64,000 nucleotides of DNA from Bacteroidota bacterium. Its GTDB lineage: Bacteria; Bacteroidota; Bacteroidia; Chitinophagales; Chitinophagaceae. The notes below the pieces were generated by a model. That model was not told the DNA's origin, did not search any database, and saw only the letters and a program-made list of their open reading frames with translations. The translations under genes were made by a program, and so were the position numbers. This document shows, piece after piece, positions 46,022 to 55,767 of this stretch (the stretch's first letter is position 1; every line of letters starts with the position of its first letter). The stretch covers positions 1 through 64,000 of the forward strand of contig JAKQEA010000098.1 of assembly GCA_029558715.1 (NCBI GenBank). The letters are read 5' to 3'.

Positions 46022-46321
46022 TCAAAGAGTTGAAACATCAATTACCGCATCTGTATTTATTGGCCCATACACATGGGGGAAAGTATCCTGTGCAGAGGGC
46101 GACCAGTCAAAAACATATTTGCTGCTGAGTTTATCGGTATCAATCACCAGTTTCACCAGATCAGTTCTGCCTGCAAAATATCTTTCGAGAACGCCAGCTA
46201 CCTGCTGCTCCTGTGAGCAATGTATAAAGCCTTCTGCCTTCAATGACGGATGCTCATAATATCCGCGGTGTTTGGCTGCATTCCACTCACCTGCTGTGGT
46301 AACATGATAGATAATTGGCAT
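46022..46321 (-). CDS. DUF952 domain-containing protein
   Basis: 99 residues. IYHVTTAGEWNAAKHRGYYEHPSLKAEGFIHCS and the later FPHVYGPINTDAVIDV are the DUF952 signature. The fold resembles ADP-ribosyltransferases, but the activity is unknown. It follows aroC by 21 bases and is probably the last gene of the aro operon; a role in the pathway is not known. Confidence 0.88.
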   Translation of the reverse strand: MPIIYHVTTAGEWNAAKHRGYYEHPSLKAEGFIHCSQEQQVAGVLERYFAGRTDLVKLVIDTDKLSSKYVFDWSPSAQDTFPHVYGPINTDAVIDVSTL

Positions 46322-46342: not shown

Positions 46343-47353
46343 TTAAAGTATAACCCTCTTGATATGTTGTTCCAATAAAAGAAAATCTGCAATTACAATA
46401 GCCGTCACTGCTTCCACTATCACCGGTGCTCTCAATGCCACACATAAATCATGGCGGCCTTTGATTGAAAAGTCTTCTGTTTTACCAGTTTCCCAGTTCA
46501 GGCTGTTTTGCTCTTTTGGAGTAGAAGAAGTAGGTTTAACAACTAACCGAAAAACGAGTTCATTACCATTACTGATACCTCCTACAATACCTCCTGCATG
46601 ATTGGTCCTTGTCCTGCCATCTGTATTTTCAATAGCATCATTATGTTCACTGCCGAACATTTTAGCTGCAGCAAAACCGGTTCCAAATTCAATACCCCGC
46701 ACAGCAGGAATTGCAAATATCATATGAGCCAGGGATGATTCAAGCGAATCAAAATAAGGCTCACCCAATCCAACAGGCAGACCATTTACTTTACACTCAA
46801 CAATACCACCTACAGAATCTTTTGCATCAATGGCTTTTTGCAGGCCTTTTTCCAGATCTTTTTCGCCCCCTATTTCTGTTACTTGGGCATGAATGCTAAG
46901 CGTAGTCATGCCGGTAGCATTCATTAACTTCTTTGCAATTGCTCCAGCCGCAACCAACCCTGTTGTTAACCTGGCACTGAAATGCCCACCACCCCGGAAA
47001 TCTTCATTACCTCCAAACTTTTGATGTGCCACCCAGTCTGCATGACCCGGACGGGGAATGCTTCTCTGCTTTGCATAATCATCACTGCGGGTATTTTTGT
47101 TTTCGAAAAGTATAGTAATGGGGAAACCGGTTGTTTTTCCATTAAAGAATCCACTTTTAAAAATCGGAAAATCTTCCTCCTGCCTTGGGGTGGTCCCTTT
47201 TTGTTTGCCTCCTTTTCTTCTTTCAAGATCTGGCAACAAATCTTCCGGCGATAAAGCTAACCCAGCCGGGCAGCCATCAATAGTTACCCCTACACACTCC
47301 CCATGCGATTCGCCAAAAATAGAAATGCGGAATATGCGACCAAATGAATTCAA
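46343..47353 (-). CDS. aroC: Chorismate synthase
   Basis: 336 residues, slightly shorter than E. coli AroC (361). GESHGECVGVTIDGCPAG opens it, then NTRSDDY, ARLTTGLVAAGAI and GRTRTNHAGGIVGGISNG, the FMN and substrate sites. It makes chorismate from EPSP using reduced FMN. Separated by only three bases from aroA. Confidence 0.96.
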   Translation of the reverse strand: MNSFGRIFRISIFGESHGECVGVTIDGCPAGLALSPEDLLPDLERRKGGKQKGTTPRQEEDFPIFKSGFFNGKTTGFPITILFENKNTRSDDYAKQRSIPRPGHADWVAHQKFGGNEDFRGGGHFSARLTTGLVAAGAIAKKLMNATGMTTLSIHAQVTEIGGEKDLEKGLQKAIDAKDSVGGIVECKVNGLPVGLGEPYFDSLESSLAHMIFAIPAVRGIEFGTGFAAAKMFGSEHNDAIENTDGRTRTNHAGGIVGGISNGNELVFRLVVKPTSSTPKEQNSLNWETGKTEDFSIKGRHDLCVALRAPVIVEAVTAIVIADFLLLEQHIKRVIL

Positions 47354-47356
47354 TAT

Positions 47357-48730
47357 TTATAAGTTGAAGTGTTGATAAGGTAAAGATACATCAGCACCAA
47401 GCTTTTTCAAATCATTATAAAAATCAGGGTACGACTTCTTAACTGCCTGCGCCTCTTCAATAATCATTTCACTATCTGCTTTTAATCCGGCTACGGCACA
47501 GGCCATGGCAATACGATGATCATGATGCGAATGAATATCAGCGCCTTTTACAATTGCCCCACCATGTATAACCATATTATCATCCTGCAAATCTATAGTC
47601 ACTCCCATTTTGTCAAATTCATCCTGCAATGTTATTGCCCGGTTGCTTTCTTTATATGTTAAACGGTTTATTCCCCTAATAGTTGTTTTACCATTGCAAT
47701 AAGCAGCCAATGCAACTAACGGTGGAAATAAATCAGGGCAATCCGTGGCATCAAAATAAAATCCATTCATTTCTGCCGGATGTAGTTGTATTCCCTTTGC
47801 ATCCATCGCCATACCGGCATTGGCAGCCATCATGGCATCAACAATTGCTTTATCAGCTTGCGTTGATGTCAAATCTAATCCTCTTACTGTTATGGGGCCA
47901 GCTATGACTCCAGCTACAAGCAGAAATGCACCACCGCTCCAGTCGCCTTCGACAGTGTAGTTAATTGGTTGACTGGTTGGCTGGTTTATTGGGTATTCAT
48001 TATGAAAAATAAATTCTTCATAGTTTTTATTCTCCGGTACTCTTAATCCAAATTGCTTCATTACATCCAAAGTCAAATCTATGTACGGCTTACTCTTAAG
48101 ATTCCGAACTTTTATAGAGACAACTTTACTATGAGGGCCCAAAATCTCCCCTTCCGAGGAATTTAGAGAGGCTCCATAAGTCATCAACAGGCCTGTAAGA
48201 AACTGTGAACTTAAAGAACCATCAATTTCAATATTTGCCGGCAGCAATGGCCCTTGTACATGCATTGGCAACCTGCCATTGCTGCTTTCTATTTTAACTC
48301 CCAGTTTTGGCAATATTTCATCAAAGAAATCCATCGGTCTCGTAACAAGACTACCTGAACCGTTTATAGTGATTTTCTTATGGCTTAAGGCAGCTATTGG
48401 CGTAAACATTCTTATACTCAATCCTGACTCTCCGCAATTAATTTCATTCCCAACGGGATCAATTTCTTTCTCCACGGGATCAATTTCTTTCTCCACGGGA
48501 TGAATCCCGTGGCTATTCACTTTTAACGCTTCATTTATGTGTTCGACTTCAGCGCCCAATGCTTTAATGATTCCAACAGCAGCTTTATCATCATTGCTGT
48601 GTCCGGGATTATGAATGATTGTTTCTCCTTTTCTCAATAACGCTGCCGCACAAGCTCTTTGCATCGAACTTTTCGAGGCTGGTGCCTGGATTATACCTGA
48701 TAATTTAGAAGGATGTATTGTTACTTTCAC
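47357..48730 (-). CDS. aroA: 3-phosphoshikimate 1-carboxyvinyltransferase (EPSP synthase)
   Basis: 457 residues. Family blocks include PASKSSMQRACAAALLR, NCGESGLSIRMFTPIAALS, LSSQFLTGLLM and HHDHRIAMACAVAGL. It transfers enolpyruvyl from PEP to shikimate 3-phosphate. Odd point: between residues about 70 and 98, just before NCGESG, there is an insert of three 7-residue repeats (DPVEKEI, DPVEKEI, DPVGNEI) encoded by 21-base repeats at 48451-48512. Divergent in composition from the rest of the gene, it probably forms a surface loop. Confidence 0.95.
   Translation of the reverse strand: MKVTIHPSKLSGIIQAPASKSSMQRACAAALLRKGETIIHNPGHSNDDKAAVGIIKALGAEVEHINEALKVNSHGIHPVEKEIDPVEKEIDPVGNEINCGESGLSIRMFTPIAALSHKKITINGSGSLVTRPMDFFDEILPKLGVKIESSNGRLPMHVQGPLLPANIEIDGSLSSQFLTGLLMTYGASLNSSEGEILGPHSKVVSIKVRNLKSKPYIDLTLDVMKQFGLRVPENKNYEEFIFHNEYPINQPTSQPINYTVEGDWSGGAFLLVAGVIAGPITVRGLDLTSTQADKAIVDAMMAANAGMAMDAKGIQLHPAEMNGFYFDATDCPDLFPPLVALAAYCNGKTTIRGINRLTYKESNRAITLQDEFDKMGVTIDLQDDNMVIHGGAIVKGADIHSHHDHRIAMACAVAGLKADSEMIIEEAQAVKKSYPDFYNDLKKLGADVSLPYQHFNL
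48451..48512 (-). repeat. 21-base tandem repeat and palindrome inside aroA
   Basis: Units start at 48451, 48472 and 48493. The last one leads into the 20-base inverted repeat CCACGGGAT-GA-ATCCCGTGG (48493-48512). Reading frame is kept throughout. Confidence 0.8.
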
Positions 48731-48731
48731 T

Positions 48732-49751
48732 TTATAAACCTTGTATAATTTTTTCTAACTGCTTTAATGAAATACTTTTCACTACCCCCCTCCCAATTCT
48801 TTCCAGCAGCACATAATTTATTTCCTTTCTTTCCCTTTTCTTATCCATCTTAAGCACATCAAACACTTTTTGCTTGTCGAAAGATGCATAGGTCGGTAAA
48901 TTATATTTCTCCAGCACACTTATCACTCTTTCTGTTTGCTTAAATCCTGCCAGTTGCTCCGAAATATGACAGGCATATGTCATACCGATAGAAATAGCCT
49001 GACCGTGCAGTAATTCATATTGTGTTTCCAGTGCATGCCCCAGTGTATGACCAAAATTTAACAACCTCCTCTCTCCTTTCTCAAATTCATCTTTCTGTAC
49101 AACCCTGATTTTTATTAAAGCGTTTGCCTGGATTAATTCGCAAATTGATTTTTGCCTGCCCCGGTATCCCTTTAATGAATTCCTTTCCAACTTTGCAAAC
49201 ATTGCCGCATCTTTTATACAGGCATGTTTAATTATTTCTGCAAACCCATTTTCCCATTCCTGCTGCGGCAGTGAGTTCAGGAAAACCATGTCATGTAAAA
49301 TGAAAGAAGGCTGACGGATAACTCCCACCATATTTTTATACATTCCCACATCGATGCCATTCTTACCACCAATGGAGGCGTCCGCCAATGCTAAAATTGA
49401 AGTAGGTATAAATCCAAACCGTAAGCCCCTCATATAAACAGCTGCCACATAGCCTGTAATATCCGTAATTACTCCACCACCTACTCCCACTAAAGTTGTC
49501 TTGCGGTCAGCTTCCATTTCAATCAGCTTTTCAATTACTGCATCCACGGTTGCCTGCACTTTAAATTCCTCGCCGGGTTTTAATATAATTGTATTCCAGC
49601 CCCTGAAACGTTTTGTATGTGCTTTGTAAACATTTTCATCTGTGATGAGTATCGTTGCCCTGGTATCAGCAATCTTTTTCAGATGGCTGATACCATAAGC
49701 AAAATAAAAGTCGGTGGATGAATTAGAAAATCTATAATTGATATGCTTCAT
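48732..49751 (-). CDS. aroB: 3-dehydroquinate synthase
   Basis: 339 residues from ATG 49751 (MKHINYRFSNSSTDFYF); ten further codons upstream are unlike the family. Blocks: GGGVITDITGYVAAVYMRGL, PTSILALADASIGGKNGIDVGMYKN, and the metal-site histidines in NFGHTLGHALE and later HG. It converts DAHP to 3-dehydroquinate with NAD+ and a divalent metal. One base separates its stop from the aroA start. Confidence 0.95.
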   Translation of the reverse strand: MKHINYRFSNSSTDFYFAYGISHLKKIADTRATILITDENVYKAHTKRFRGWNTIILKPGEEFKVQATVDAVIEKLIEMEADRKTTLVGVGGGVITDITGYVAAVYMRGLRFGFIPTSILALADASIGGKNGIDVGMYKNMVGVIRQPSFILHDMVFLNSLPQQEWENGFAEIIKHACIKDAAMFAKLERNSLKGYRGRQKSICELIQANALIKIRVVQKDEFEKGERRLLNFGHTLGHALETQYELLHGQAISIGMTYACHISEQLAGFKQTERVISVLEKYNLPTYASFDKQKVFDVLKMDKKRERKEINYVLLERIGRGVVKSISLKQLEKIIQGL

Positions 49752-49816
49752 TATATGCCGAATATATTTACTAAAGTACAAGAGGCGAACTGCCTGCTGG
49801 CAGGTTCATTATCAAC

Positions 49817-50905
49817 CTAGCTATCCAGTATTTTTTTCTGATGATTTATACTCTCCATATGCACAGCATCCAAATACTTGGTGATAAATTCTTTACTTAA
49901 TCCTATTTTTTCACCCTTTGCGCTGGCCCTTTCAATAATTTCATTCCAACGGCCTGTCTGCAAAATGGTAATATTATTATCTTTTTTATATTGCCCGATC
50001 TGTTCAGCGATCTTCATCCGTTGCCCCAGAATCTGCATCAGTTCATCATCCAGGTGATTGATCTTCTGGCGCAGTGCTTCCAATGCAGCATGATATTCCT
50101 CGGAGTTAATATCTTCTTTTCTCCAGATGATACTGTCCAGCATCTCGGCTAAGCGTTCAGGTGTCACTTGTTGTTTAGCGTCGCTCCATGCATTATCAGG
50201 GTCGATATGACTTTCAATCATCAGCCCATCATAGTCAAGGTCGATTGCTTTTTGCATTACTTCAAGTAAGATATCACGACGGCCACAAATATGCGAAGGG
50301 TCATTGATCAGTGGCATACCCGGGTGCTTCAATTTCATATCAATAGCCAGGTGCCACATAGGCGCATTACGATACTCAGAATTTCCATACGAACTAAAAC
50401 CACGGTGTATCAGGCCAATTTGTTTTACTCCTGCCCTTGCCACTCTTTCTACCGCACCACTCCATAATTCAATATCAGGATTGATCGGATTTTTAATCAA
50501 CACCGGTATATCCACGCCTCGCAGTGCATCGGCTACTTCCTGCACACTGAAAGGGTTTACCGTTGTTCTCGCACCAATCCACAACACATCCACATCAAAT
50601 GTCAATGCATCCTGCACCTGCTTACCGGTTGCCACTTCAACTGTTGTTGGCAAACCTGTCAGTTTCTTAGCCTGTTGCAGCCAGGGCAAACCTTTTGTAC
50701 CCACTCCTTCAAACATACCGGGCTTGGTTCTCGGTTTCCAGATACCTGCCCGCAGCATATCTATTTTTCCTGTTGCTGCAAGACGTTGTGCCGTAGCCAA
50801 TACCTGTTCCTCAGTTTCTGCACTGCATGGCCCACTGATGATCAGCGGCCGTTTATGCCAGGCTCCCTGTACGGTTTCCTTTTCTGACTGTTCTGTTGTT
50901 TGCAT
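49817..50905 (-). CDS. Bifunctional DAHP synthase / chorismate mutase type II
   Basis: 362 residues. Residues about 20-265 are the KDO8P-synthase-like DAHP synthase: LIISGPCSAETEEQV, LRAGIWKPRTKPGMFEG, LIHRGFSSYGNSEYRN and INDPSHICGRRD. After a short linker, residues about 272-355 are a chorismate mutase helical domain (ALEALRQKINHLDDELMQILGQRMKIAEQIGQYK). The first domain makes DAHP from PEP and erythrose 4-phosphate, the second turns chorismate into prephenate. The fusion places the entry and branch step in one chain and usually allows prephenate feedback. Typical of Bacteroidota. Confidence 0.94.
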   Translation of the reverse strand: MQTTEQSEKETVQGAWHKRPLIISGPCSAETEEQVLATAQRLAATGKIDMLRAGIWKPRTKPGMFEGVGTKGLPWLQQAKKLTGLPTTVEVATGKQVQDALTFDVDVLWIGARTTVNPFSVQEVADALRGVDIPVLIKNPINPDIELWSGAVERVARAGVKQIGLIHRGFSSYGNSEYRNAPMWHLAIDMKLKHPGMPLINDPSHICGRRDILLEVMQKAIDLDYDGLMIESHIDPDNAWSDAKQQVTPERLAEMLDSIIWRKEDINSEEYHAALEALRQKINHLDDELMQILGQRMKIAEQIGQYKKDNNITILQTGRWNEIIERASAKGEKIGLSKEFITKYLDAVHMESINHQKKILDS

Positions 50906-50920
50906 TTGTACAAATTTAAT

Positions 50921-51769
50921 TTATTTAATTATCCTCCTTATTTTATTCGCCTCCTCAATCAACCGCATTAAATATTCATTATCCTCTTTTTCAAGACTCT
51001 CCTTAAATCTTGACAGCTGCGCAATATGTTCTTTCAAAACATCCAGCACATTCTCCTTATTCTGCATAAAGATCGGCACCCACATAGCCGGGTTACTCTT
51101 TGCCAATCGGACGGTGCTTTCGAAACCGGCAGAAGCTAATTCAAAAATAGCCTGCTCTTCTTTTTCCTTTTCCAGCACCGTATTTGCCAATGCAAAAGAA
51201 GTGATATGTGAGATATGACTCACATAAGCCGCATGCAGATCATGAGCCTTTGCTTCCATTTCCAACAGGTGCATACCAATTTTTTTATACATATGCTTTA
51301 CCCATTCCAGTGCATCAGCATCGCTTTCCTCAGCATTACAAATAATGACAGCTTTATTTTCATAGGCACCACGCACTGCCGCCTGCGGACCGCTGTACTC
51401 GGTTCCCCACATCGGATGCGTGGCTACATATCTCCCCCTTTTGGGATGATTTTTTATTGCTTCAATCAATTGTGACTTAGTGGAACCAAGATCCAGTACA
51501 ACCTGGTTATCAATTTTATTCAGAATCCGGGGCAATAATGATACCATCGTATCAACAGGTACTGCCAGCACAATCACATCTGCCTGCTGAATAGCTTCAT
51601 CCAACGAAAGTGTCTCATCCACCAATTCCATCTCTAATGCTTTCTTTGCATGCTCTTCATTGGCCTCTACGCCAATAAGTTTTGATGACAATTTCTTTTC
51701 ATGCAACTGTATGGCCAATGAACCTCCTATCAGACCAACACCAATTATTGCAATTTTTTTCCTTTTCAT
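50921..51769 (-). CDS. tyrA: Prephenate dehydrogenase
   Basis: 282 residues. IAIIGVGLIGGSLAIQLHEK is the NAD-binding fold; VDLGSTKSQLIEAI and FVATHPMWGTEYSGPQAA-like segments (THPMWGTEYSGP) carry the active-site His. It converts prephenate to 4-hydroxyphenylpyruvate. It is followed after 15 bases by the DAHP synthase gene; no ACT domain is present. Confidence 0.94.
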   Translation of the reverse strand: MKRKKIAIIGVGLIGGSLAIQLHEKKLSSKLIGVEANEEHAKKALEMELVDETLSLDEAIQQADVIVLAVPVDTMVSLLPRILNKIDNQVVLDLGSTKSQLIEAIKNHPKRGRYVATHPMWGTEYSGPQAAVRGAYENKAVIICNAEESDADALEWVKHMYKKIGMHLLEMEAKAHDLHAAYVSHISHITSFALANTVLEKEKEEQAIFELASAGFESTVRLAKSNPAMWVPIFMQNKENVLDVLKEHIAQLSRFKESLEKEDNEYLMRLIEEANKIRRIIK

Positions 51770-51770
51770 T

Positions 51771-52931
51771 TTATATAATGCTTTTTATCCGCTGAATAGC
51801 TTCTTCAATTTTCTCTTCTGTACTGCATAAACTTATCCTTACATATTGTTCACCGGCACTGCCGAATATTCCCCCGGGTGTTATAAATACTCCTGCATTA
51901 TATAGTACCTCATCACTCAATGCAAATCCATCGCTATGTGCTGAGGGTATGGCCGCCCACACAAACATTCCGGCCTGCTCTTTTGAAAATTTACACCTGA
52001 GCAAAGTCAGCAATTCAAAAACTTTTTCCCTTCTTTCCCTGTAAACAGTATTCACCCTATCGTGCCATTCTTTCCCAAGTGTCAATGCTTTTACAGCAGC
52101 CAGCTGTGCCGGCAAAAACATACCACTGTCCATATTACTTTTAAAACGAAGCACTTCTTCAACTCTTTCTTTTGCCCCGCAAAGCATACCTATTCTCCAC
52201 CCGGCCATATTATGACTTTTGCTCAATGAATTCAGTTCAATCACACAGTCTTTTGCGGTTTCAACACTTAACAAACTCATTGGAGAATCATTCAGAATAA
52301 AAGAGTATGGATTATCATGAATGATCAGGATCTTATGCTTTTTACCAAATACCACTATTTTTTCAAATAATTCTTTTGACGGTAACTTCCCTGTTGGCAT
52401 ATGGGGATAGTTAACAAACATTAATTTCACCTTCTTCAAACTTTTCTTTTCCAGTTTTTCAAAATCTGGTTCATAATTATTCTTTTCCCGTAGTTTGTAC
52501 TCCACGCATTTACCAGCAGCCAGTTTTACTGCACTGGTGTAAGTGGGATAGCCGGGATTGGGCACCAGTACTTCATCTCCTTTATCCAGGTATGTCATAC
52601 AGATATGCATGATGCCTTCTTTACTGCCAATCAGCGGCAACACTTCAGTATCAGGATTAAGATCAACATTATACCATTTCTTATACCAGTCGCTCATTGC
52701 TTTTCTCAATAAAGGCGAACCTTTGTAAGATTGATATGCATGGACATTTGGCTTTGCAGCCTCTTCCTGCAATGCCCGTACTACTTCCGGATGAGGTGGC
52801 AGATCAGGACTACCTATCCCGAGGTTAATAATATTCTTCCCTGCCTTATTCAACTCATCTATCTCTCTCAGTTTTTGAGAAAAATAATATTCACCAATAC
52901 CTTCCAGTCGTTTACTTGTTTTTATTTCCAT
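51771..52931 (-). CDS. Class I/II pyridoxal-phosphate aminotransferase
   Basis: 386 residues. INLGIGSPDLPPHPEVV, YQSYKGSPLLRKAMSDWY, LVPNPGYPTYTSAVKL, IIHDNPYS, and the PLP lysine in LNSLSKSHNMAGWRIGM. Such enzymes are annotated as LL-DAP or aspartate/aromatic aminotransferases. The position between pheA (10-base overlap) and tyrA (one base apart) suggests it makes Phe and Tyr from phenylpyruvate and 4-hydroxyphenylpyruvate. Confidence 0.92.
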   Translation of the reverse strand: MEIKTSKRLEGIGEYYFSQKLREIDELNKAGKNIINLGIGSPDLPPHPEVVRALQEEAAKPNVHAYQSYKGSPLLRKAMSDWYKKWYNVDLNPDTEVLPLIGSKEGIMHICMTYLDKGDEVLVPNPGYPTYTSAVKLAAGKCVEYKLREKNNYEPDFEKLEKKSLKKVKLMFVNYPHMPTGKLPSKELFEKIVVFGKKHKILIIHDNPYSFILNDSPMSLLSVETAKDCVIELNSLSKSHNMAGWRIGMLCGAKERVEEVLRFKSNMDSGMFLPAQLAAVKALTLGKEWHDRVNTVYRERREKVFELLTLLRCKFSKEQAGMFVWAAIPSAHSDGFALSDEVLYNAGVFITPGGIFGSAGEQYVRISLCSTEEKIEEAIQRIKSII

Positions 52932-53752
52932 AATCCTCTTTTATAAATACCATACACTTTTACCGATTCAGTAAGTGGCTCCAGAGTTTTCATCACTTCG
53001 TTGAATTGTTCAGTACTATCAAATTCCATATCTGCATGAAAAGCATACTTGAAATCTGAGCCAGGGATGGGAAAACTCTGCAACTTGCTTAGGTTGATTC
53101 CCCCTTCAGAAATTTTTGTGAGCACTTTGGCTAAACTTCCCCTCGAATGATCTGTATGAAAAGTAACAGAGGCCTTATCTGCATTTTCAATTTCAGCTGC
53201 ATTTTCTTCCCTGTCTAACATCAGGAACCGAGTATAATTATTTTTCAACGTATGGATATTAGAAACAATTACATTCAGCTCATACAATTCAGCTGCCAAT
53301 TTACTTGCGATAGCTGCGATATGCCTGCTTTTATGCTGGCGGATATGTTTTGCACTAAGTGCAGTATCCTCTGTCTCCACCAGCTTCCATTTGTACTTAT
53401 CAAGAAAATCATAGCATTGTTGCAAGGCCATGGTATGAGAATGAACTTCTTTTATATCTTCTAATTTTACCCCCGGGTTAACCAGCAGGTGCTGACGTAT
53501 CTGTAAATAAATTTCTCCAATGATTTTCAGGTTGCTTTTCTGCAGCAGGTTGTAATTTGGCAGTATGCTTCCGGCAATAGAATTCTCAATAGCCATTACC
53601 CCTCCGTTACTTTCCTTTTTATTCGAAGCAATTTTTATTACATCACGAAAAGTGGCACATGGGATTACTTCCACATTTTTCCCATGAAATAATTGTGCAG
53701 CCACCTGGTGAAAGCTGCCTTCATAGCCTTGTATTGAAACTTTGGTACTCAT
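52922..53752 (-). CDS. pheA: Prephenate dehydratase
   Basis: 276 residues. The PDT domain (1 to about 180) has VSIQGYEGSFHQVAA, GVMAIENSIAGSI and the catalytic Thr in NNYTRFLML. An ACT domain follows (about 190-270), where SRGSLAKVL corresponds to the usual GALV motif and LQSFPIPG to ESRP, only partly conserved. It produces phenylpyruvate. First structural gene of the aromatic operon; its ATG lies eight bases beyond the terminator hairpin at 53761-53790. Confidence 0.95.
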   Translation of the reverse strand: MSTKVSIQGYEGSFHQVAAQLFHGKNVEVIPCATFRDVIKIASNKKESNGGVMAIENSIAGSILPNYNLLQKSNLKIIGEIYLQIRQHLLVNPGVKLEDIKEVHSHTMALQQCYDFLDKYKWKLVETEDTALSAKHIRQHKSRHIAAIASKLAAELYELNVIVSNIHTLKNNYTRFLMLDREENAAEIENADKASVTFHTDHSRGSLAKVLTKISEGGINLSKLQSFPIPGSDFKYAFHADMEFDSTEQFNEVMKTLEPLTESVKVYGIYKRGLWK

Positions 53753-53760
53753 AGTTAAAC

Positions 53761-53790
53761 AAGAATCCCGGCCGTTTGGCCGGGATTCTT
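53761..53790 (-). terminator. Attenuator terminator hairpin before pheA
   Basis: Perfect 13-bp stem (53778-53790 with 53761-53773), four-base loop, GC-rich core; on the minus strand the 3' arm ends ATTCTT and continues GTTTAACT into the pheA ATG. It leaves no room for a promoter between hairpin and gene, so pheA transcripts must pass through it. Confidence 0.8.
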
Positions 53791-53818
53791 TATGTTGTTG
53801 TTTTTTAGTTGTTCTGAT

Positions 53819-53902
53819 TTATTTCAACAAAAGCATTCCCGGCTTCATTTTAAAAAAGAAGTAATAAAAATAGAAACCAAAATATGTCTTTGTTGTTTTC
53901 AT
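53819..53902 (-). CDS. Phe/Tyr-rich leader peptide of the aromatic amino acid operon
   Basis: 27-codon ORF, ATG at 53902 and TAA at 53819. Residues 1-6 are MKTTKT; residues 7-17 (YFGFYFYYFFF) are Phe or Tyr in ten of eleven positions; the end is KMKPGMLLLK. It lies seven bases after a consensus -7 box and 28 bases before the terminator hairpin in front of pheA. The codons for the products of the downstream operon, packed in a tiny ORF before a terminator, are the hallmark of an attenuation leader peptide. The segment at codons 20-22 (53837-53843) is complementary to the 5' arm of the terminator and can act as antiterminator when the ribosome stalls upstream. Not recorded by ORF finders because of its size. 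Confidence 0.85.
   Translation of the reverse strand: MKTTKTYFGFYFYYFFFKMKPGMLLLK
53837..53843 (-). promoter_or_regulatory. Antiterminator segment in the leader ORF
   Basis: GCCGGGA on the transcript; exact complement of TCCCGGC in the terminator 5' arm (53779-53785). Its surroundings (GCCGGGAATGCTTTT) copy the 3' arm (GCCGGGATTCTTGTTT). Confidence 0.65.
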
Positions 53903-53909
53903 CTGTAAA

Positions 53910-53940
53910 CAAATATAGCTTTCTTGTTCAGTTTAGCAAA
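53910..53940 (-). promoter_or_regulatory. Promoter of the aromatic amino acid operon
   Basis: TTTG (53937-53940), exactly 19 bases, TATATTTG (53910-53917) on the minus strand: full consensus for the Bacteroidota housekeeping sigma factor. Transcription is predicted to start about 53903-53906, at most a few bases before the leader-peptide ATG. Confidence 0.78.
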
Positions 53941-53951
53941 TTTTAAAAAGA

Positions 53952-55640
53952 TTATTTCTTTCTGCCACCACCTGATTCAGCATCATTCATCCGGATCTTG
54001 CGTCCACGGTAGTTCTTACCATCAATCGCTTTTATCATCTTCTTACCGGCCGATGGCTCTATCTCAATCCAGCTGGTCATCTCCTTCATATCTATTTTAC
54101 CAAGTACTTCTTTCTTCAGATCACTCATATCCAGTATAAACTGTAAGAAACTGGCTTTATAGAAACCATCCTTTGTTCCAAGGTTTACAAACAGTCGTTG
54201 GTAATTTCCTCCACCACTGAAACTTCTTCCCTTGGTATCTCTATCCCTTGATCCGCCTCTATCGCCTCTTGCATCCTGCCTGTCACCTCTTCTTTCGCCT
54301 CTTCTGTCATCCGTTCTCATGTTAAGATCAGCCGCATTCTCATAATATTTCAGGAACCTGTCAAATTCAAGGGCTGCCACTCTTTGTAATATTTCTTCTT
54401 TTTCAACAGAAGCAAACTTCTCCCTGAGTATTGGTAAGTAAGCTTCATATTCACCATGGCTGATATCTGCCTGCAACATTTTATCTATGAAATGGAAGAA
54501 CTGTTTACGGCAAACATCCTTACCACTTGGTATATCCATTTTATGAACCCTGGTATTTACCAATCTCTCAATCTGGCGCAAACGGTATGTTTCCTTTGGT
54601 GTTACTATCGAAACAGAAACACCACTGTTACCTGCCCGGCCCGTACGTCCGCTTCTGTGTGTGTACACTTCCACATCATCTGGCAATTCATAGTTGATAA
54701 CATGAGTAATTCCTGCTACATCAATACCACGGGCAGCTACATCTGTCGCTACGAGAAGCTTTACACTTCTGTCCCGGAAAAGACCCATTACTTTATCTCT
54801 TTGCTGCTGGGTAAGGTCACCATGGATAGCATCAATATCATACCCTTCCCGGGTAAGTTTCTCGGCTATTTCCTGCGTATCAGCTTTTGTGCGGGCAAAT
54901 ACTATCCCATATATACCGGGGTTAAAATCAATGATCCTTTTTAAAACCTCGTACCTGTTATGATGCTGTGTGGCATAGTACTGGTGATCAATATTTACAT
55001 TACCTGAATTTACTTTTCCAACGGTGATCTCAAATGGCTGATCCATGTATCTTTTGCTCACCTGCCTTATCTCTGCCGGCATCGTAGCGCTAAACAGCCA
55101 GATACTTTGTCGATTGGGAGTGTTTTTCAGAATGAACTCAATATCCTCCTTGAAGCCCATATTCAGCATTTCGTCGGCCTCATCCAATACTACATAATGA
55201 ATTTTATCAAGATTAATAGCTTTTCTCTCAATCAGGTCGATCAGCCGGCCCGGAGTAGCTACAACAATATGGCTTCCTCTTTTAAGATCCCTTATCTGCA
55301 TGGTAATAGAGGTACCTCCATAAACAGCCGTTACAGAAATACTGGCTTTCTTGCTTTTGAATTTTTCCAGGTCACTTGTTATCTGAAGGCATAATTCTCT
55401 TGTAGGACAAACGATCAATGCCTGGGGAAAACGGTCCTCCTTATTTATAAGTTGCAAAAGAGGCAATCCAAAAGCTGCTGTTTTACCGGTTCCTGTTTGC
55501 GCCAAACCGATAAAATCTTTTGTCCCTTGGAGCAAAACCGGGATTGCTTTTTCCTGGATAGGTGTGGGCTGGGTAAAACCTAATGCCTTTACTGAATGTA
55601 GTAAGCCTTCTTCAATACCCAAGGCTTCAAATGTGTTCAC
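53952..55640 (-). CDS. DEAD-box RNA helicase with DbpA-like RNA-binding domain
   Basis: 562 residues starting at GTG 55640 (VNTFEALGIEEGLL); a -7 box at 55673-55680 makes the longer frame to 55760 untranscribed from that promoter. Helicase motifs: FTQPTPIQEKAIP (Q motif), AQTGTGKTAAFG (Walker A), VLDEADEML, SAT, ATDVAARGIDVAGI and HRSGRTGRAG. After about residue 450 there is an Arg/Gly/Asp-rich linker (RRGDRQDARGDRGGSRDRD), then a DbpA-type domain (FVNLGTKDGFYKASFLQFI, about 475-560). Likely a ribosome assembly or cold-shock helicase. Confidence 0.93.
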   Translation of the reverse strand: MNTFEALGIEEGLLHSVKALGFTQPTPIQEKAIPVLLQGTKDFIGLAQTGTGKTAAFGLPLLQLINKEDRFPQALIVCPTRELCLQITSDLEKFKSKKASISVTAVYGGTSITMQIRDLKRGSHIVVATPGRLIDLIERKAINLDKIHYVVLDEADEMLNMGFKEDIEFILKNTPNRQSIWLFSATMPAEIRQVSKRYMDQPFEITVGKVNSGNVNIDHQYYATQHHNRYEVLKRIIDFNPGIYGIVFARTKADTQEIAEKLTREGYDIDAIHGDLTQQQRDKVMGLFRDRSVKLLVATDVAARGIDVAGITHVINYELPDDVEVYTHRSGRTGRAGNSGVSVSIVTPKETYRLRQIERLVNTRVHKMDIPSGKDVCRKQFFHFIDKMLQADISHGEYEAYLPILREKFASVEKEEILQRVAALEFDRFLKYYENAADLNMRTDDRRGERRGDRQDARGDRGGSRDRDTKGRSFSGGGNYQRLFVNLGTKDGFYKASFLQFILDMSDLKKEVLGKIDMKEMTSWIEIEPSAGKKMIKAIDGKNYRGRKIRMNDAESGGGRKK

Positions 55641-55672
55641 GAAATAAATTTTTGATGGTTGATAAGAATCGG

Positions 55673-55680
55673 CAAAGGTA
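55673..55680 (-). promoter_or_regulatory. -7 box of the DEAD-box helicase gene
   Basis: TACCTTTG on the minus strand, 32 bases before the GTG start. It supports that start over the upstream ATG. Confidence 0.55.
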
Positions 55681-55740
55681 GCCTTAAATAAGGGGACAGA
55701 AGAATGTATTTTGACTGATAAACTTCCTGCTACTGTAGTA

Positions 55741-55767
55741 AAATAAAAAGCCGCACACAAGTGCGGC
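55741..55767 (-). terminator. Terminator after the small lipoprotein gene
   Basis: Stem GCCGCAC/GTGCGGC (55750-55756 with 55761-55767), loop of four, followed on the minus strand by TTTTTATTT. 27 bases beyond the lipoprotein stop. Confidence 0.87.

Follow-up and report, generated by a model that had tools for sequence, protein, structure and literature searches.

The attenuators of E. coli pheA and pheST each combine a Phe-rich leader ORF, an intrinsic terminator and a competing antiterminator, and Phe leader is the name of an Rfam family. In the enterobacterial thr and ilv systems several amino acids are sensed by one leader. Attenuation candidates in the Bacteroidetes/Chlorobi were reportedly listed by Vitreschak and others in 2004. 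According to a 2010 paper, leader-peptide systems had, to its authors' knowledge, not been shown beyond Proteobacteria and Actinobacteria before their own Firmicutes case (PMC2965389), and a comparative attenuation study of 2010 by Lopatovskaya and others is cited in PMC4833913. A Flavobacterium psychrophilum study presents 'strong clues' of leader-peptide attenuation before amino-acid operons and a structured 5' element upstream of pheA, which occurs in other Flavobacteriaceae genera and has no Rfam hits (PMC9723704). Given these earlier candidates, attenuators in this phylum are not new as an idea, and the remark of an earlier note on the present DNA, that none is known to be described for this operon in Bacteroidota, has to be corrected in view of the F. 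psychrophilum report. In the open-licence literature on attenuation and leader peptides we found no description of a Phe/Tyr attenuator in Bacteroidota, nor, in the open-licence literature, a bench study of leader-peptide attenuation in the phylum.

In this work we analyzed a stretch of 64,000 nucleotides from a Chitinophagaceae genome (the window), in which a ribosome-mediated attenuator very probably sets the expression of a pheA-tyrA-aro operon according to the supply of charged Phe and Tyr tRNA. The parts of the attenuator and the genes behind it are the following (the basis of each assignment is given last):

53910-53940, minus strand: Bacteroidota-type promoter, TTTG (53940-53937), 19 nt, then TATATTTG (53917-53910); read from sequence
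53819-53902, minus strand: leader ORF of 27 codons, MKTTKTYFGFYFYYFFFKMKPGMLLLK, with ten Phe/Tyr at residues 7-17; translation
53869-53896, minus strand: segment 1 (bounds approximate), 5' part of the leader ORF, partner of segment 2; fold
53825-53843, minus strand: segment 2, GCCGGGA (53843-53837) plus GCTTTTGTTG (53834-53825), 3' of the aromatic codons and within the leader ORF, partner of segment 3 (antiterminator) or segment 1; shuffle and named-pair tests
53778-53797, minus strand: segment 3, CAACATA plus the terminator 5' arm; sequence, conserved in alignment A1
53761-53790, minus strand: intrinsic terminator hairpin 3:4, 13 bp with 8 G-C, loop AAAC; sequence and terminator scan
52922-53752, minus strand: pheA, prephenate dehydratase (PF00800); Pfam
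51771-52931, minus strand: aminotransferase class I/II (PF00155); Pfam
50921-51769, minus strand: tyrA, prephenate dehydrogenase (PF02153, PF20463); Pfam
49817-50905, minus strand: DAHP synthase fused to chorismate mutase (PF00793, PF01817); Pfam
48732-49781, minus strand: aroB, 3-dehydroquinate synthase (PF01761, PF24621); Pfam
47357-48730, minus strand: aroA, EPSP synthase (PF00275); Pfam
46343-47353, minus strand: aroC, chorismate synthase (PF01264); Pfam
46022-46321, minus strand: 99-aa ORF at the operon end; ORF list

Most of what the earlier note had read from this region agrees with our coordinates and translation: the leader ORF with its ten Phe/Tyr codons, the 13-bp hairpin ending 8 nt before the pheA ATG (53752), and the complementarity of GCCGGGA to TCCCGGC in the terminator 5' arm. 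Some details have to be amended, and a 1:2 hairpin and a predicted near-leaderless transcript, both described below, come in addition to the note. The 7-bp antiterminator pairing stands but is not its full extent, since GCTTTTGTTG (53834-53825) can also pair with CAACATAAAG (53797-53788). The promoter is where it had been placed but is of the Bacteroidota type and not a "full consensus" one; a sigma-70 scan gave only 9 of 12 there and is uninformative for this phylum. Finally, the operon had been described as eight aromatic genes, and Pfam gives seven, followed by the 99-aa ORF. That ORF may be DUF952-like, and a relative of it lies 3' of aroC in three of the eight fetched stretches that extend past aroC (L230, L231, L241). 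Judged by the Pfam-assigned genes from pheA to aroC, the amino acids that would be sensed are the products of the operon.

The RNA from 53905 to 53745 folds at -45.7 kcal/mol, compared to -22.8 (sd 3.4) for shuffled sequences (z = -6.8; none of 200 shuffles was as stable), and its minimum-energy fold consists chiefly of the terminator and a long hairpin between the two ends of the leader ORF (1:2). The T run of the terminator, TTCTTGTTT, is interrupted. No Rfam family matched the window at the gathering score (4227 families scanned). A model (R1) built from alignment A1, in which the window is one of 60 sequences, scores 146 bits at the attenuator and 23 bits at the next best place in the window.

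An ORF at 53952-55760, presumably a DEAD-box helicase, ends 11 nt before the attenuator promoter. The terminator scan lists no terminator between the two, so read-through from this ORF would also meet the attenuator. The same layout could be read as an ordinary terminator of the upstream gene that happens to follow a chance U-rich ORF. The probability of this explanation is close to negligible, because the Phe/Tyr codons are specific to one frame (see below), a promoter box lies near the leader start, an antiterminator is present, and the element is conserved behind other upstream neighbours.

We surveyed 195 Chitinophagaceae genomes and obtained a pheA match in 133 of them, at 134 places. The 133 places examined comprise 130 (30 loci including the window, plus 100) and 3 added later; the pheA fragment of G151 is outside this set. 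With a leader taken as a short upstream ORF in which Phe/Tyr fill 6 or more of 12 residues, 128 of the 130 and 1 of the 3 regions carry one (129/133), and 126 of the 130 reach at least 7 Phe/Tyr; the leader of L105 begins with GTG. The leader is absent from four of the 133 family regions, L113 (the second copy of G149), L117 (G049), L233, and L234; in G049 the element heads a different part of the pathway. In a named-locus set of 80, whose genomes are partly shared with the family survey, 79 reach at least 7 Phe/Tyr and the remaining locus has only 86 nt upstream. Shuffled versions of the regions from outside the family gave at least 6 in 45/1600 and at least 7 in 6/1600 cases. For detailed comparison we used 126 leaders, i.e., the 130 minus L113 and L117 (no leader) and L009 and L096 (no usable terminator picked, although that of L009 is visible by eye).

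Model R1 matches 126 of the 195 family genomes, with two copies in six. Four weak R1 matches (G073:C39, G071:C14, G031:C9, and G112:C1) have neither a Phe/Tyr leader nor an operon gene in the stretch and are likely due to chance; the weak match G049:C26 was left out. Two genomes, G106 (L243, 452-682) and G177 (L248, 421-649 in reverse-strand numbering), carry tandem attenuators 5' of pheA, with one aromatic leader per attenuator: the first leader is MQTQTTFGYFYGFYFFWYQK and MITQTTFGFFGFYYFWYQK, respectively, and the second is also Phe/Tyr-rich.

Over the aromatic run of the 126 leaders (window included), Phe and Tyr make up 86% of the in-frame codons vs 28% and 27% in the other two frames, and the third positions are T or C nearly throughout. 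This frame specificity indicates that the run is kept as Phe/Tyr codons, beyond mere U-rich RNA. In the 3' part of the leader, the reading of similar DNA varies between genomes (KPGMLLL, SRVVFAKA or PGCFC), which argues that this part is preserved more as RNA than as peptide. These data also bear on whether the short peptide itself might be functional, in trans or on the ribosome, with the RNA pairings being secondary. An N-terminal TKAY-like motif together with the aromatic run is widely recurrent, and a trans-acting leader peptide has a precedent in peTrpL of Sinorhizobium meliloti (PMC7298713). We nevertheless rate a functional peptide as very improbable: its C-terminal part would be read as different peptides across genomes, and among 25 DAHP synthase loci with enough upstream DNA, from genomes where pheA and tyrA were not found, there is no aromatic leader (the best has 5/10 F/Y/W).

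The leader is also found outside the family. Of 395 genomes drawn across the class, 107 gave a pheA match, 100 of them outside Chitinophagaceae, and 80 of these 100 places were fetched (regions L151 and L207 are short because of contig ends). At least 7 Phe/Tyr in 12 residues occur in 44 of the 80 Bacteroidia regions and at least 6 in 54, with 26 below 6. The 44 leaders are spread over 15 of 29 families; 35 of them have a terminator and 31 a 2:3 pairing at no more than 10 in 200 shuffles, the latter from 13 families with varied stem sequences.

Next, we examined the alternative pairings. When the region from the last aromatic codon to the terminator was shuffled and paired with the terminator 5' arm, the natural 2:3 pairing stood out at 2 or fewer in 200 shuffles in 112 of the 126 leaders (14 miss this level) and at 10 or fewer in 121. 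With up to 16 extra bases 5' of the terminator arm the 2:3 helix becomes longer, and 116/126 are at 2 or fewer in 200. The 2:3 segment starts a median of 7 nt past the last aromatic codon, and the terminator a median of 25 nt past the leader stop. The 1:2 pairing reaches 10 or fewer in 200 shuffles in 93/126.

Alignment A1 holds 60 sequences chosen from 106 dereplicated elements of the 126, and many divergent terminators were left out. RNAalifold on A1 recovered the 3:4 hairpin alone; 2:3 and 1:2 were tested as structures named from the window's row, which favours them. Nine named pairs of the terminator are formed in 93.5% of cells, with both sides changed in 24 cells vs 7.9 in shuffles; four pairs changed on both sides (30/500 shuffles as high) and there are 12 further pair types (115/500). 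The ten named 2:3 pairs are formed in 88.1% of cells vs 27-55% for slid pairings, and both sides changed in 22 cells vs 6.1 in shuffles (0/500 as high). Counted by pairs, six 2:3 pairs show a change on both sides (3/500 shuffles as high), which is within the slid range of 3-7, as are the 14 pair types within 7-18. For 1:2 the corresponding occupancy is 76.0% vs 41-53% slid, and covariation is weak, weaker than for 2:3 (shuffles as high: 28/500 for both-side cells, 14/500 for covariation score, 146/500 for both-side pairs).

Swapping partners between leaders gave a further comparison. Own 2:3 partners pair at -16.5 kcal/mol vs -13.8 for swapped ones and exceed the mean swap in 91 of 109 rows; own 1:2 partners pair at -15.9 vs -12.3 and exceed it in 101 of 109 (0/10000 permutations in both cases). 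None of these pairing statistics are strict probabilities, because related sequences share ancestry. The earlier note had expected relatives to have the short aromatic-rich ORF and the complementary segment, with compensatory changes. Both the ORF and the segment recur in the numbers given above, and compensatory changes occur in cells of the named 2:3 pairs; as far as relatives can be compared by sequence, its attenuator interpretation is supported.

From this anatomy and comparison, promoter use, leader translation, stalling, termination and readthrough can be pictured as follows. RNA polymerase would start at about 53905, and a ribosome would initiate almost at the 5' end of the RNA and then enter the ten-codon Phe/Tyr run. 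If Phe or Tyr is short, the ribosome would stall in the run and cover segment 1, leaving segment 2 free for segment 3; once 2:3 has formed, the terminator would come too late and polymerase would continue into pheA. If both amino acids are plentiful, a ribosome at the leader stop would cover the 3' half of segment 2, 3:4 would form and transcription would end.

We modeled these states by folding growing transcripts in which a ribosome footprint was masked, reaching 14 nt to the 5' side and 15 nt to the 3' side of the first base of the P-site. Before arm 4 is made, the predicted folds are dominated by 2:3 both with a stalled ribosome (median 16 pairs) and without a ribosome (16.0). With the ribosome at the leader stop 2:3 falls to a median of 6.0 pairs (4.7 in the window), and 77 of 126 leaders keep at least 5 expected 2:3 pairs. 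Once 8 nt of arm 4 exist, the terminator prevails over 2:3 in 109/126 leaders without a ribosome, 56/126 with a stalled one and 122/126 with one at the stop; with the full hairpin these counts are 119, 101, and 124. In the stalled state of the window, 2:3 is retained with 4 nt of arm 4 and lost with 8. In the model the direction of change is that expected of attenuation, but the terminator prevails in most leaders at equilibrium. Since the full terminator wins in 101/126 despite stalling, the switch would have to be kinetic. Before arm 4, 2:3 also beats 1:2 even without a ribosome, which suggests that the 1:2 hairpin may matter little.

The position of the hairpin leaves room for an action mainly on translation, in which the start of pheA is hidden and becomes free when a ribosome stalls, without premature termination. 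The short distance to the pheA ATG in the window, 8 nt, would suit such a scheme, and the distance is at most 15 nt in 64 of 126 leaders. In 26 of the 126, more than 40 nt separate the hairpin from the first in-frame start 3' of it, and in 123/126 the 8 nt at the hairpin end include 5 or more T, as a terminator would, a figure partly built in as hairpins were picked with 4 T in 7. On balance we consider translational control very improbable and prefer transcription attenuation.

A perfect TAnnTTTG box within 30 nt 5' of the leader start is present in 102 of 126 leaders and in 5 of 504 control windows. In F. psychrophilum, the box spans -12 to -5 (PMC9723704). By this spacing rule transcription in the window is predicted to start at about 53905, which puts some 3 nt ahead of the leader AUG. 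Among the 102 relatives whose box is perfect, 86 have a predicted 5' UTR of no more than 5 nt, and in 13 it is exactly 0. In 10/126 leaders another in-frame ATG precedes the leader start by up to 30 nt (by 6 nt in nine of the ten), which would alter the prediction for them. When the promoter was defined more strictly, 5 nt or less was predicted for 62 of 70 Phe/Tyr leaders vs 2 of 7 ordinary genes, the locus pool overlapping the 102 and the control being small at 7 genes. Between box and ATG there are mostly 4-8 nt in the family (searched within 30 nt) and a median of 22.5 nt outside it (26 leaders, perfect boxes up to 60 nt away). For comparison, leaderless transcripts account for 5.5% of mapped mRNAs in F. 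psychrophilum (PMC9723704); in B. thetaiotaomicron about 3.7% of 5' UTRs are under 10 nt (PMC7366714).

The window's own genome (G000) has further leaders of this kind. A second attenuator-like leader, MKKYTHNHHHFLLCQGRP, is found 5' of hisG (C1, L211), whose ATG is preceded at 7 nt by the box TACTTTTG; a G-C hairpin plus T run stands before hisG. A Trp-type leader, MRKHNNTWWWHTTLKGL, precedes a chorismate-binding gene (C172, L213), with a TATATTTG box 6 nt before the ATG. With these distances, the His, Trp and Phe/Tyr leaders seen in G000 would all be near-leaderless by their looks. In the same genome ilvD, a second chorismate-binding gene and one of two homoserine dehydrogenase loci showed no leader of the Phe/Tyr kind.

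Some operons with a changed head also bear the element, starting with aminotransferase-tyrA (G049, G074), tyrA (G068, G016), or DAHP synthase (G157), and in the small number of operons that lack pheA the leader has a different codon composition. Where tyrA but not pheA was found and the operon head could be read, the leader has 6 Tyr, no Phe and 1 Trp (G068) or 5 Tyr and 2 Phe (G074), and the Tyr share is above that of all 126 pheA-headed leaders (median 0.38); only two genomes enter this comparison, which was chosen once the data were known, and as G074 is at 90% completeness, its assembly may simply lack pheA. The Tyr share of G049 (0.62) exceeds 124 of the pheA-headed leaders and that of G016 (0.5) exceeds 109; G157, which is not tyrA-headed, exceeds 85 (0.44). 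For the four tyrA operons a Mann-Whitney test gave p = 0.00065 (post hoc, four cases). We take this as a sign that leader codons follow operon gene content. G059 was dropped as a case of pheA loss because its contig ends inside the aminotransferase gene (L250). Among the 62 family genomes that gave no pheA match, tyrA was matched in 4 (weakly in one) and the DAHP synthase-chorismate mutase query in 58, with E below 1e-50 in 55; those keeping this early pathway enzyme look like Phe/Tyr auxotrophs.

A dispersed element was also noticed, TTTTCATATGGCAAGCAATCGTTA followed directly by a terminator-like hairpin, at L043, L105, L233, and 43 other contexts. It is present in 127 of 191 family genomes in 1-9 copies each, some close together, and often just 3' of genes whose products end in A/T/D/K-rich repeats; the window has none and its genome one copy. 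A hairpin-like stretch with GCTTGC frequently precedes it and is complementary to GCAAGC of the motif, by eye a possible pseudoknot. The reversed pattern had no match in the listed genomes, and four carrier loci tried against Rfam gave no match at the gathering score.

A broader reading of the data is, in our view, as likely to hold as to fail. It includes a dual Phe/Tyr attenuator across the class Bacteroidia, a leader ORF in Chitinophagaceae that would be leaderless or nearly so, with ribosomes loading at the RNA 5' end right after polymerase has started and needing no Shine-Dalgarno pairing, and the loss of Phe codons with pheA while Tyr codons are kept. Wide conservation of the attenuator would then imply close coupling of transcription and translation in the phylum. 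The element is a candidate regulator, open to experiment, of the main operon for aromatic amino acids in Bacteroidota. Because the mechanism needs a ribosome close behind RNA polymerase, it could serve to report transcription-translation coupling, and also how ribosomes initiate on near-leaderless RNA where bacteria do not depend on Shine-Dalgarno pairing (PMC9723704). It could become an RNA family, the window being without an Rfam match.

Among known systems, E. coli pheA and pheST share with this locus a leader ORF, terminator and antiterminator before a Phe gene, and differ in that the present leader mixes Phe with Tyr codons and precedes an operon for the synthesis of both amino acids. Sensing of more than one amino acid is shared with the thr and ilv leaders, for other amino acids. 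The structured pheA element of F. psychrophilum belongs to the same gene and phylum and is possibly identical; a Phe/Tyr leader, an alternative pairing and a wider comparison are absent from the parts of its main text compared (PMC9723704). In S. meliloti, trpL likewise has its leader ORF at the RNA 5' end, senses Trp, and can be set beside the predicted 5' UTRs here, 3 nt in the window (PMC7298713). Next to these systems, the present element is real and well conserved and very probably a Phe/Tyr leader-peptide attenuator of a kind already known, set apart by its mixed Phe/Tyr run, the near-leaderless leader ORF predicted in the family and the signs that its codons track gene content.
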